51,358 nucleotides of DNA. Source: a virus. Position numbers and translations under genes: made by a program. Positions 1 through 51,358 of this stretch are shown here, one piece after another. The DNA is taken from the IMG/VR virus record IMGVR_UViG_3300036801_000054, positions 1 through 51,358 of that record. The stretch is one strand, 5' to 3'. The stretch's first letter is position 1; each line of letters opens with the position of its first letter. A model generated the notes under the pieces. It made no database searches and was not told the DNA's origin. It saw only the letters and a program-made list of their open reading frames with translations.

Positions 1-127
1 GGAAGCATTGCCATTGTGCGCCCGGCCCTCCTCCTTGCCTTTCTTCGTCGGGTCTTTGGTCACGACGTTTGCCATGCCTTGCTCGCCCTGCCAGCAACCT
101 TCGCGCGTCGCGAAGGCGGGATTCGCG
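1..127. repeat. Terminal direct repeat, left copy (circular contig overlap)
   Basis: Bases 1-127 are identical to 51232-51358. This is the usual sign that an assembler walked once around a circular or circularly permuted molecule, so the unique genome length is about 51,231 bp. The repeat lies inside a single open reading frame that continues across the junction, so it is an assembly overlap and not a true terminal redundancy with its own function. Confidence 0.95.
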
Positions 128-1593
128 ACACCGGCCGCCGCGCCAGCCGCATCGATTCGCTCGCGCCACTCCGACTTAAGGCGCAGCCAGTCGCCCTTGA
201 CCGAGTTCCACACGTTGGTCATGGTAATGTGCGCAAGCAGCTTCATGCGAACGTCGGCGATGTCACCATGCACCATGTAGCAGAAGCCCGACATTTTCAG
301 ATAGGTCTGAAAACCGACGCTCTCGAATAGCGCTGGCGTCTCAAACTTACTCTTCGGGTCGGTCGTAATGATCGCTGGGTACTTGTTCAGATTTTGCGCG
401 ATTACTTGGCGGACCATTTCCGCGTAGAGCTCGGTAGTGAATCGGCCCGGAACAATGACCGATTGAAGCAGGCAAAACTCGCGCGACACGTCGTTATTCT
501 GGAACGTGAAAAACCCGCTGAAATCGTTGTCGAGCTTCAGGACGATGGCGGAATGAATCTGCATATTCTTGCGGGCCGCGCGCTTGGCGATCACGTCCTC
601 AATCGCTAGTTTCGCGACGTCGGCTTCGTAGCCTGACCCGATCACGCTTTTGCAGTAAATCCACTCGACTTTGGGCGCGAACAGTTGCGCCTGACCGATC
701 GCGGCATCGGCCCGCGCTTGGTTGTCAGGCAGAAGCGGCTGCGGCACGCCGCACTGATCCGGGCAGGCATCGCAGGTTCCAAGGTATACGTCTTCCGAAT
801 GTAACGACACGAGTTTCCCTCCTCCAATTGCGTCATCCTTGCGGGTCAAAATAATATCGCCGTTTGCCACATGCGGGTTCGACTTCTCGGCGCGCAGCGG
901 GTTATCTATGATCGGGTCCAGGGTCATCAGGTAGTCTTGCTTGCGTTTCGCAGTGAGCGCCCATTCGGATGTGCCGTATTCACAGGACACGACGCGGGCA
1001 ACGCTACGCACGCCGGCAGCCTTCAAGCGATTGATTTGGCCTACCCGATGCTTGAGCTGCGCGTCTGAGTCCAGCCCGCTGACGGACGTATTCACGACAG
1101 CGGACAGTGCGGCCAGACGCCTAATATGGTCATCCGAAAGCGGAATCCAATGCTTGGTGATGATGACCGGAATCTTGCCTGTTTCGCGCAGCCATTCGCA
1201 GACCTCGAGCGTATTGTCCCAATCGTGACAGGGTTCGCCAGCGGTGCCAATCCGATACCAATAGGACGGATGATCCCTGACTGTGCGGAAGATGCTGGCG
1301 CGATTGTCGGGCGTCAGTTTCCGCGACACGCTGACGGTAAAATCGATGCCGTAGCGCTCGGCGATCTTGTTGGCGTAGCACTCGCCATAACATCCAGTGC
1401 CGGGGCGCGCTCGCATACCAAGCGTGCAGCCCTTCACCGTATCTACGTCCAGCACACCCTTTTCATTCTCGGACGCCGTGAGAATCGGTAGGTACTGACG
1501 AAGACCGCCACCACTGGGCGCGCTATCGGCGAATAGGCCGGATTGCAGAACGATTGGAATAATCTTCGCTCGCGCTGCCGCTTGCTCAAGCAT
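1..1593 (-). CDS. Radical-SAM-like / GNAT-like / DNA methyltransferase fusion, N-terminal part (continues at 51231-50554)
   Basis: This is the first 531 codons of a 756-residue protein cut by the contig ends. The frame has no stop from 1593 to base 1 and rejoins the frame ending at 50554. The ATG at 1593 overlaps the stop of the preceding gene by 8 bp. Residues about 40-300 look like a radical SAM barrel: Cys56, Cys68 and Cys72 (C-x11-C-x3-CYA) are followed by a GEP motif at 119-121 and alternating strand-helix segments, with a second cysteine cluster at 274, 277 and 281 that could hold an auxiliary iron-sulfur site. Residues about 330-440 resemble a GNAT acetyltransferase, ending with the typical LFESVGF. 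The methyltransferase part follows in the companion entry. The cysteine spacing is not the canonical CX3CX2C, so the radical SAM call is tentative. The neighbouring DpdA-like gene suggests a role in DNA base modification, which is inference. Confidence 0.7.
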   Translation of the reverse strand, partial: MLEQAAARAKIIPIVLQSGLFADSAPSGGGLRQYLPILTASENEKGVLDVDTVKGCTLGMRARPGTGCYGECYANKIAERYGIDFTVSVSRKLTPDNRASIFRTVRDHPSYWYRIGTAGEPCHDWDNTLEVCEWLRETGKIPVIITKHWIPLSDDHIRRLAALSAVVNTSVSGLDSDAQLKHRVGQINRLKAAGVRSVARVVSCEYGTSEWALTAKRKQDYLMTLDPIIDNPLRAEKSNPHVANGDIILTRKDDAIGGGKLVSLHSEDVYLGTCDACPDQCGVPQPLLPDNQARADAAIGQAQLFAPKVEWIYCKSVIGSGYEADVAKLAIEDVIAKRAARKNMQIHSAIVLKLDNDFSGFFTFQNNDVSREFCLLQSVIVPGRFTTELYAEMVRQVIAQNLNKYPAIITTDPKSKFETPALFESVGFQTYLKMSGFCYMVHGDIADVRMKLLAHITMTNVWNSVKGDWLRLKSEWRERIDAAGAAAGVANPAFATREGCWQGEQGMANVVTKDPTKKGKEEGRAHNGNAS

Positions 1594-48406: not shown

Positions 48407-48761
48407 GGGGCGATCCTTTCGCGGCGTCGGCCAGCACATAAAGTTGCAGTTCGGAGTAGGTCGATTCCAAATCATAAATTAGAGCAGATACCCCTTGCTC
48501 GATTTCGTCTGCCAAAGCCAGCAATGGACGATTCGCCTCCTGTGCCGGAATGCCACGCGATTCAGGGTCAACAAATTGTCGCAACTTATTGGCTAGCGCA
48601 GTCGCCCCTTCATGTGGCACCCGCTCCCGGCGCAGTTGCGCGATGGCGTCGGCGGCTTGCTCGCGCAGCGGATCGACTCCATTGGTCGGGTCATAGTCGC
48701 GCAGCGCACGCTCAATCTCGTCCAACTCCTTGTCGCTGATCGCCGCGCCGCGTTCGCTCAT
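48399..48761 (-). CDS. Hypothetical acidic protein
   Basis: A 120-residue helical and acidic protein, not recognised (ISDKELDEIERALRDYD). ATG 48761 preceded by AGAGGA. Confidence 0.7.
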   Translation of the reverse strand: MSERGAAISDKELDEIERALRDYDPTNGVDPLREQAADAIAQLRRERVPHEGATALANKLRQFVDPESRGIPAQEANRPLLALADEIEQGVSALIYDLESTYSELQLYVLADAAKGSPHD

Positions 48762-48955
48762 GTCCTCTGTCCCCACGCCTTCCAAGCATCTAGTTTGCTT
48801 CGTGTCTCTAGCGGCCCATCCGATGTTAGCAATTGCACCGGCCCACGCGCTCCACAGACCGCGCACTCGACGAAAGTGCATCCGGTTATATCGTTCAGCC
48901 TAGCGCTTAATTCGCGACCACTACTATCGCAGAACGGACAGCGTGCCCTAGCCAT
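48758..48955 (-). CDS. Lar-like restriction alleviation protein
   Basis: A 65-residue protein with CPFCDSSG at 6-13, VECAVCGARGP near 29-39 and a C-terminal WKAW, the pattern of the Lar family, named from Rac prophage Lar that lowers type I restriction. In many phages the function is only assumed. GGGAGGG precedes the ATG. Confidence 0.8.
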   Translation of the reverse strand: MARARCPFCDSSGRELSARLNDITGCTFVECAVCGARGPVQLLTSDGPLETRSKLDAWKAWGQRT

Positions 48956-49672: not shown

Positions 49673-50398
49673 TTAGACTGCGAACTCCGTTTGTTGCGGC
49701 ATGCGTTCGATCCATGACGCGAAGCGTTCGGCCTCGCGCCAGCAATTCCCATCGCGGCCATTCATCCGAGCTGCGTAGCTCCATGCCATGCTGTCGGCGG
49801 AATGGAGAAAATCTACGATTGTGGCTATTTGCAGCGAGGTTTTCTTGAGCCCGAAACCATGTAGGCGCAAGTCTGGCCGCTCGGCTTTGATCGCTTGCAA
49901 TACCGCAACAATCGCGCTCGGGTTGCCATTGCGCTTGCAGATCGAGCCGACGCCAACCCACATGCCGGGCTCTAGGCGCGCGCCGTACTGGCGAACGTGC
50001 GAAACGTACTCATCCGGCGCATAGCCTTGCAGAACCGGTAGCACATAGACTCCGACATTCTCCGCGATCAAGTCGTCGTACCGTTCAATCGTCAACCGCT
50101 GATGCTCTATGACCGTCAGCCCGGTCTTGGCGAGCATGTGCGGCTCGCACATATAGTCCTGCGCCACCGCAGCCAGCAGCCCTGGCGAGCGGGACCACCG
50201 GCGGATCTCTGCCGCGTACTCGCTGATCGGCGACGGATAGCCGCCGAACTTGGCGATAGTCGTGAACGCACCGGAGTCCATGATCCACTTGCCCTTGGCG
50301 CTGATGTCGGACCTTCGCGTACGCAAGCGATTGACGCTGATGAACGCGCGGCTGATCTGCTTGGCGTCGCTAGGCTGGTGCAGGCCGCAAAAAAACAT
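49673..50398 (-). CDS. DpdA-like DNA transglycosylase (TGT-related)
   Basis: A 241-residue protein related to tRNA-guanine transglycosylases and the phage DpdA enzymes that insert 7-deazaguanines into DNA. KWIMDSGAF at about 50-58 holds an Asp-Ser-Gly motif like the TGT substrate-binding Asp; YVLPVLQGY, VGVGSICKR and LHGFGLKK follow at the positions of further barrel motifs. The zinc-binding Cys set of bacterial TGT is absent, as in several DpdA families. The start is ATG 50398, overlapping the stop of the peptide upstream as TGATG; a longer start at 50494 would run through that peptide. No preQ0 synthesis genes were seen here, so the base would come from the host. Confidence 0.78.
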   Translation of the reverse strand: MFFCGLHQPSDAKQISRAFISVNRLRTRRSDISAKGKWIMDSGAFTTIAKFGGYPSPISEYAAEIRRWSRSPGLLAAVAQDYMCEPHMLAKTGLTVIEHQRLTIERYDDLIAENVGVYVLPVLQGYAPDEYVSHVRQYGARLEPGMWVGVGSICKRNGNPSAIVAVLQAIKAERPDLRLHGFGLKKTSLQIATIVDFLHSADSMAWSYAARMNGRDGNCWREAERFASWIERMPQQTEFAV

Positions 50399-50511
50399 CA
50401 CCGGGTTCGCTGCGCCTGCTGGTGGGCAACGACATAGGCGGCAATGCCGACATTTGCCGCAACGATCGCAAGCGCGACAGCCCACATGATCCAACCGAGC
50501 CTGCTCATCAT
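50398..50511 (-). CDS. 37-residue membrane peptide between fusion enzyme and DpdA-like gene
   Basis: Starts MMSRLGWIMWAVALAIVAAN with GAGAAGGAAG just upstream, one membrane span, and a stop overlapping the DpdA-like ATG. The strong ribosome site suggests that it is translated and couples translation to the next gene. Confidence 0.6.
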   Translation of the reverse strand: MMSRLGWIMWAVALAIVAANVGIAAYVVAHQQAQRTR

Positions 50512-50553
50512 GCTTCCTTCTCGTTCATTGCCGGGCGTGCGGACCGGCGCGCG

Positions 50554-51358
50554 TTATAGCCGGCCGATCGGCTGGTATAGGTCACCAATCTTCGATATGT
50601 CTCCCTTGTACGCGACGATGATCTTCTGCTCGCGCTTCGGGAACTTGCGCCGGTGCAGCGTTTTCTTCGCATGCGCTAGGCGCGTGAATTCTGATTCGAG
50701 ATATACGATCTTGTTGTAGACCGATAGCCCGTTATCCTTAAAGAAGAGTTCCGTCTCTGCTTCGGAGCAGTAGTAGGCGCCGCGTTTGTCGCGGCTGTCA
50801 CCGGTCATGACCACGAAAAAGCAATTGTCGTTTAGGTGCTCGATGGCCTTTTTGTAACCGATGAACAGCACATCGCGAAACTTCTCGTAGGTGTCCAGAG
50901 AGTTGATTTCCCCTGGCGGGGCCGTGCCGTCGTAGTCGACATACCGTTCCACTTTGTAGTACGGCGGGCAGGTGAATATCAGGTCGAACATGCCGTCAGG
51001 CGCATAGGTGGAGCTGTCCGCGTTCACCCATTTGACCGCGCCGAACTCGCCGCAAATCTTATTGTTCGCATCGCACTGATTCTTCCGTATCTCGCTGGCG
51101 ACGTACTCATACCCGCACGCGCCCGAGATGTAGCCAAATTGGACGCCACCACCGAACGGGTTATAGACCCGCCGTCCAGTCTTCGGCATGAAGAACCGCG
51201 CGATAACCTCGCACGCGACCGGGTCTAGGACGGAAGCATTGCCATTGTGCGCCCGGCCCTCCTCCTTGCCTTTCTTCGTCGGGTCTTTGGTCACGACGTT
51301 TGCCATGCCTTGCTCGCCCTGCCAGCAACCTTCGCGCGTCGCGAAGGCGGGATTCGCG
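50554..51358 (-). CDS. Radical-SAM-like / GNAT-like / DNA methyltransferase fusion, C-terminal methyltransferase part
   Basis: C-terminal portion of the protein starting at 1593; bases 51232-51358 duplicate 1-127. Residues about 535-756 of the joined protein form a class I SAM-dependent DNA methyltransferase: NPFGGG at 555-560 is motif I-like, and FTCPPYY at 617-623 matches the catalytic (S/D/T)PPY-type motif IV of amino-methyltransferases acting on adenine N6 or cytosine N4. The end is a lysine/arginine-rich segment. An internal ATG at 51306 (equivalent to 75) could give a free-standing methyltransferase of 250 residues, but the frame is open far upstream and no ribosome binding site stands out there. 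The target base and sequence cannot be read from this. Encoded just upstream of a small membrane peptide and the DpdA-like gene. Confidence 0.75.
   Translation of the reverse strand, partial: ANPAFATREGCWQGEQGMANVVTKDPTKKGKEEGRAHNGNASVLDPVACEVIARFFMPKTGRRVYNPFGGGVQFGYISGACGYEYVASEIRKNQCDANNKICGEFGAVKWVNADSSTYAPDGMFDLIFTCPPYYKVERYVDYDGTAPPGEINSLDTYEKFRDVLFIGYKKAIEHLNDNCFFVVMTGDSRDKRGAYYCSEAETELFFKDNGLSVYNKIVYLESEFTRLAHAKKTLHRRKFPKREQKIIVAYKGDISKIGDLYQPIGRL
51232..51358. repeat. Terminal direct repeat, right copy
   Basis: Exact second copy of bases 1-127. Joining the two copies restores one uninterrupted reverse-strand frame from 1593 through 1/51231 to 50554. Confidence 0.95.

Follow-up and report, generated by a model that had tools for sequence, protein, structure and literature searches.

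To our knowledge, Elp3—the catalytic subunit of Elongator—is the sole precedent for a radical-SAM domain and a GNAT domain acting on a nucleic-acid base. Its product, 5-carboxymethyluridine, derives from acetyl-CoA, with free acetate as the intermediate according to the latest account (PMC13315578). As the carboxymethylcytosine route of CmoX shows (PMC12783734), phages have other ways to attach handles of this kind to DNA. For phages that carry the transglycosylase DpdA without companion genes—the "DpdA-only" group—the documented outcomes vary: the DNA of Orion is unmodified and that of phage 7-11 has traces of modification (PMC6884629), and MED16 bears dADG in its DNA (PMC8306585).

Here, we describe a phage locus in which a DpdA-like gene lies beside a gene for a fusion of radical-SAM, GNAT-fold and methyltransferase domains. 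It is found in the IMG/VR virus record IMGVR_UViG_3300036801_000054, whose entire 51,358 nucleotides were analyzed and are called the window in the following. In the literature searched on radical-SAM enzymes, GNAT proteins and phage DNA modification, no description of such a fusion was found—a prior mention is possible—and the architecture is widespread and apparently undescribed. Phage DNA modifications determine which restriction and other defences fail, and the fusion offers an expressible and concrete starting point for finding a new base.

Gene layout and domains of the fusion

The window carries an exact direct repeat of 127 bp at its two ends. This makes the record circular or a circular permutation of about 51,231 bp, in which the fusion gene spans the junction (1593..1, continued at 51231..50554) as one frame of 756 aa. 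Relatives encode the same protein in a single uninterrupted ORF. The features of the locus are as follows, the GNAT-fold domain being placed with the help of a homologous protein from a close relative, L002.

1..127, no strand: direct terminal repeat of 127 bp, identical to 51232-51358
1..1593, minus strand: residues 1-531 of the fusion (ORF covering its 5' two thirds), comprising the spore photoproduct lyase (SPL)-like radical-SAM domain, the GNAT-fold domain and the linker that leads to the methyltransferase
739..1506, minus strand: radical-SAM domain of the fusion, from the AlphaFold2 model and six invariant cysteines
244..648, minus strand: GNAT-fold domain of the fusion, about residues 316-450, from the structure match of the homologous L002 residues
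50554..51357, minus strand: 3' part of the fusion gene, class-I SAM methyltransferase (phrog_498, phrog_12517), whose first 126 nt repeat the other record end
50398..50511, minus strand: single-span membrane peptide of 37 aa, MMSRLGWIMWAVALAIVAANVGIAAYVVAHQQAQRTR, read directly
49673..50398, minus strand: DpdA, 7-deazaguanine DNA transglycosylase family, 241 aa (PF23859, phrog_1279), ATG at 50398 and stop at 49673

DpdA, membrane peptide and fusion are thus consecutive on the minus strand in an operon-like order, as a sequence-only reading of this DNA had described. The interval that it assigned to the locus, 49673-51358, does contain DpdA and the membrane peptide, but merely the C-terminal third of the fusion. 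The TGA of the membrane peptide overlaps the ATG of DpdA, 42 nt lie between the fusion stop and the membrane peptide, and the gap from fusion to DpdA amounts to 155 nt. Omega values of about 0.03-0.08 across the three fusion domains and of 0.16 for DpdA reflect purifying selection, strong in all three fusion domains, which argues that the fusion domains and DpdA are functional. The same region as DpdA also encodes a small zinc-ribbon protein resembling the restriction-alleviation protein Lar (48758-48955, minus strand), whose matches to PF14354 (E 1.9e-5) and TIGR03655 (E 2e-8) are both slightly below the cut-offs; this gene is possibly part of an anti-restriction island.

The fusion of radical-SAM, GNAT and methyltransferase domains had been called from the letters of the DNA, and all three domains are supported by AlphaFold2 and structure comparison. 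For the radical-SAM/GNAT part—the N-terminal two thirds—Pfam, PHROGs and NCBIfam returned nothing, and a sequence-only search of the PDB with the fusion or its radical-SAM part gave nothing meaningful. The model of residues 25-300 of the window fusion (pLDDT 94.3) adopts the partial TIM-barrel fold of radical-SAM enzymes. Its best match listed is spore photoproduct lyase (4fhf; Z 12.3, 224 residues, rmsd 4.2)—an enzyme that acts on DNA—followed by viperin with a Z of 12.0, and the remaining listed matches are mostly radical-SAM enzymes; the absence of Elp3 from the best 50 matches listed does not imply its exclusion. Six cysteines are invariant in 62 relatives, arranged as C-x9..11-C-x3-C near the N end and CxxCxxxC at the C end of the domain, and are of metal-ligand type. 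The canonical CX3CX2C spacing is absent from this domain, which also lacks a PF04055 match; non-standard cysteine spacings are known in the radical-SAM superfamily.

The model of the whole L002 protein has a pLDDT of 80 and a pTM of 0.55, the latter rendering the relative domain placement unreadable. Within this model, residues 313-450 form a GNAT fold with a Z of about 16 to GNATs. Residues of this domain rank with the best conserved in the fusion protein. Where the CoA pyrophosphate loop, (R/Q)xxGx(G/A), calls for glycine, none is present in 47 of 47 sequences, in which Y396 is invariant; this makes the use of acetyl-CoA doubtful. A second GNAT protein is encoded directly downstream of the GNAT-methyltransferase in L089 (5254-5871). 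This paralogue, with 34% identity to the fusion GNAT domain, has KGNGLA as a glycine loop of the CoA type and matches PF00583 weakly.

Residues 453-749 of L002 fold as a class-I methyltransferase with a Z of 17.7 to the tRNA m2G10 enzyme aTrm11, and tRNA m2G enzymes are the nearest solved structures of this domain. On the sequence level, it matches phrog_498 "DNA methyltransferase" (E 1.9e-35) and phrog_12517 (E 1.7e-37); PF01555 is hit with 17.5 bits, under the cut-off of 26.7. Within the class-I SAM fold, it carries the motifs I and IV of DNA amino-methyltransferases of the (D/N/S)PP(Y/F/W) type: NPFGGG (NPFGGGVQ in 47 of 47 sequences) and (T/S)CPPYY (FxCPPYY in all 46 sequences with letters there). 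The nucleic-acid substrate of the fusion is probably DNA, the reservation being owed to the tRNA m2G enzymes among the solved structures.

Distribution and radical-SAM partner of the fusion

Relatives of the fusion occur in at least 231 IMG/VR loci (one scan) and in five bacterial or metagenome-assembled genomes; none was found in plasmids. Among 50,697 phage records, no relative covers 80% of the protein, and isolated phages match the fusion in the methyltransferase part, for example with the ParB-methyltransferase of P2559S.

The domains are not always held in one chain. Across 86 loci, a single ORF covers the three domains in 53; in 21, the radical-SAM part is an adjacent ORF (downstream in a few cases); one has the methyltransferase split off; and 11—some of them on truncated contigs—are without a detectable radical-SAM of the fusion type. 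In four of these 11, a canonical, SPL-like radical-SAM enzyme with CX3CX2C spacing is encoded by the very next gene, directly downstream of the GNAT-methyltransferase:

L074, 10410-11288: canonical SPL-like radical-SAM gene
L087, 1729-2586: canonical SPL-like radical-SAM gene
L092, 5166-6038: canonical SPL-like radical-SAM gene
L093, 2865-3704: canonical SPL-like radical-SAM gene

The radical-SAM partner has apparently been replaced in these loci. The replacement enzyme is kin of PA0069 and Rv2578c and, weakly, of spore photoproduct lyase; it exceeds the PF04055 cut-off in three of three cases tested, and another of the 11 loci, L100, has a truncated copy. A tree built from the GNAT-methyltransferase core requires 13 changes of the fused state, of which at least nine fall on branches with good support; for the canonical partner, it requires at least three label changes. 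The radical-SAM enzyme has therefore persisted although it was repeatedly split off, fused, reordered and replaced, which argues for a functional link with the GNAT-methyltransferase core. Hence, the lasting partner of this core is a radical-SAM enzyme—of two different SPL-like types—and not DpdA.

Against a constant partnership counts at least one lineage, L075/L078, where no radical-SAM gene was found beside the core. In L057 (record G056:17493-18308), the radical-SAM gene upstream of an intact GNAT-methyltransferase bears three in-frame stop codons, and represents either a decayed partner or a case of read-through. The recurrent neighbours of the core are mostly replication and recombination genes, the most frequent clusters being shadow ORFs of the fusion, and no modification gene other than the radical-SAM recurs widely beside it.

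Possible chemistry of the fusion

We give about an even chance to the reading that the fusion is a self-contained, DpdA-independent enzyme for the hypermodification of nucleic-acid bases, belonging to a widespread environmental phage family. Its domain make-up, its cysteines and methyltransferase motifs, the purifying selection and the radical-SAM linkage are observed; the roles of the methyltransferase, radical-SAM and GNAT parts we infer. The methyltransferase domain, of the exocyclic-amino-group type, would grip the phage DNA and flip or methylate a base. Next to this base, the radical-SAM domain would make a 5'-deoxyadenosyl radical, which would activate a C-H bond, be it in the base, in the newly added methyl group or in a small acyl donor. 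Binding of this donor would fall to the GNAT-fold domain, or else this domain would supply, position or hand over an acyl-type group. The resulting base would be larger than an N-methylated one and would block restriction enzymes. In its boldest form, the idea is that one polypeptide joins methyl transfer with C-H activation by a radical and group handling of the GNAT type, and so builds a bulky base directly in DNA—Elp3's DNA counterpart, making an uncatalogued modification in hundreds of environmental phages. In this form, we consider it unlikely.

The fusion might instead be an ordinary protective methyltransferase yielding N6-methyl-A or N4-methyl-C, with an SPL-like radical-SAM domain for DNA repair and a GNAT that is a degenerate binding domain in the place of its relatives' ParB. 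The methyltransferase domain does belong to the phage DNA methyltransferase family phrog_498, which elsewhere is fused to ParB, the GNAT is without a CoA loop and the radical-SAM domain folds like a lesion-repair enzyme. However, a role in repair leaves the fusion, splitting and re-acquisition of the radical-SAM with the same GNAT-methyltransferase core unexplained, and the high conservation of the GNAT residues does not speak for degeneration, so that an ordinary methyltransferase appears rather unlikely.

Quite improbable is a target other than DNA, be it RNA (tRNA or phage transcripts), a protein or a small molecule. The tRNA m2G methyltransferases as closest solved structures are consistent with such a target, as is Elp3, the known radical-SAM/GNAT enzyme, which acts on tRNA (PMC13315578); on the other side, the sequence kin of the methyltransferase domain are annotated as phage DNA methyltransferases, often ParB-fused, and the window bears no tRNA genes.

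If the fusion followed the chemistry of Elp3 strictly, acetyl-CoA or acetate would be converted to a radical that adds to the base, resulting in a carboxymethyl-type DNA modification. The order of radical-SAM and then GNAT from N to C terminus in one chain has its precedent there (PMC13315578), and carboxymethyl bases exist in phage DNA, made via another route by CmoX (PMC12783734). Nevertheless, we hold this chemistry to be very unlikely, given a radical-SAM part that is nearest to SPL and viperin among the matches listed and a GNAT devoid of the CoA glycine loop.

DpdA and comparison with known systems

The sequence-only reading had proposed that a DpdA-like transglycosylase and the fusion form one modification pathway, fed by a precursor from the host. 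Its identification of DpdA is confirmed by Pfam PF23859 (E 9.2e-44; 150 bits against a curated cut-off of 27 in the profile search), by phrog_1279 "queuine tRNA-ribosyltransferase" (E 1.4e-64) and by two aspartates in the alignment—D41 in DSGAF, which is invariant, and D202 in SADS, which is nearly invariant—that we take to be the catalytic-type aspartates of the TGT superfamily. The reported absence of queC, queD and a canonical queE holds as well: profile searches that detected their controls found neither QueC nor QueD/PTPS in the window, and no PF04055 match exists in the window, so that no canonical QueE is encoded. By QueC and QueD/PTPS, the phage hence does not encode the preQ0 biosynthesis of a self-sufficient 7-deazaguanine pathway. 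DpdA probably acts separately from the fusion and uses host precursors; wherever the host supplies a 7-deazaguanine (preQ0/preQ1), DpdA would put it in the place of some of the guanines.

The proposed coupling of the two enzymes fails on co-occurrence. PF23859 DpdA is present in two of 87 different records (82 viral and 5 bacterial genomes) with the fusion or the GNAT-methyltransferase core, namely the window and L002, which lie in one small clade of the core tree. DpdA is missing from the next relatives in this clade, L021 with a record of 21 kb and L061 with one of 40 kb. The L002 and L021 proteins are about 81% identical to the fusion of the window. Conversely, a search for the fusion in 13 other DpdA-bearing records detected its positive controls and no fusion. 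The TGT-like family phrog_887, distant from DpdA, adds two lineages among 50 fusion records: it is found in three of them, two of which carry a 100% identical copy and look like one phage. This is at most a weak excess, and phrog_887 is never adjacent to the fusion. There may be a faint statistical association of DpdA and fusion. Side by side, the pair does not recur in the other records searched, L002 bearing the two genes about 1.9 kb apart.

That DpdA inserts a host 7-deazaguanine which the fusion then methylates or acylates is thus extremely improbable, since the common strand, the short gap, the membrane peptide overlapping the DpdA start, the recurrence in L002 and the deazaguanine in the DNA of the DpdA-only phage MED16 (PMC8306585) are set against a DpdA missing from 85 of the 87 records—including 36 of 37 viral records of at least 30 kb, the window being the sole carrier—a fusion missing from 13 of 13 other DpdA records, and phrog_887 in just three of 50, two with an identical copy. 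As nearly all relatives of the enzyme are without DpdA, the most fitting view of the fusion is that of an independent DNA-modifying machine, to which DpdA is incidental. Gene adjacency in one genome can hence mislead as pathway evidence: DpdA is the neighbour here, the radical-SAM enzyme the lasting partner.

Some further proteins of the TGT type were observed along the way. Members of phrog_887 are encoded in L026 (15220-15999), in L027, L081 and L084, and in record G011:36680-37399, with a DNGAFT motif. In Rhizobium phage RHph_TM3_3_3, an annotated attL lies inside a DpdA-like gene (L017 7156-7170; MN988468.1 49957-49971), which is preceded by two methyltransferase genes. In Microcystis phage Mwe-JY07 (L018 5421-6983), an unannotated 520-aa protein is encoded directly upstream of a DpdA-like gene; BLAST of this protein against the fusion domains gave no match.

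Among described systems, the phage DpdA enzymes of CAjan, Rosebush and MED16 share the PF23859 family and both aspartates with the window gene 49673-50398, which differs in having no QueC or QueD companions and hence falls into the DpdA-only group. Phage ParB-methyltransferases (phrog_498; gp66 of Croceibacter phage P2559S) share this methyltransferase domain, including its R-x-G-x-W linker, motif I and (S/T)CPPY, but bear ParB in the place of the GNAT and no radical-SAM. In P2559S, an ASCH-domain protein, the ParB-methyltransferase and an S-adenosylmethionine decarboxylase are encoded consecutively (L112 3671-6123). Mom of phage Mu, which modifies adenine in DNA, is likewise a GNAT-related phage DNA modification enzyme, and by eye both appear to be without the CoA glycine loop; homology of Mom and the fusion GNAT domain was rejected with an hhalign probability of 0.1%.

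With Elp3, which makes cm5U in tRNA, the fusion has in common the radical-SAM-then-GNAT order in one chain and, probably, a nucleic-acid base as target (PMC13315578). It differs by a radical-SAM part nearest to SPL and viperin among the matches listed, another cysteine spacing, the lack of the CoA glycine loop and the added methyltransferase; the missing loop and the closeness of the radical-SAM part to SPL and viperin limit the analogy. With spore photoproduct lyase (4fhf) and the PA0069/Rv2578c families, the radical-SAM domain of the fusion shares the fold (Z 12.3 to the lyase); the canonical replacement enzyme of L092 also shows sequence matches to them. Compared with these enzymes, the fusion stands apart by its divergent cysteine motif (C-x9..11-C-x3-C and CxxCxxxC) and by the GNAT and methyltransferase domains that are fused onto it.
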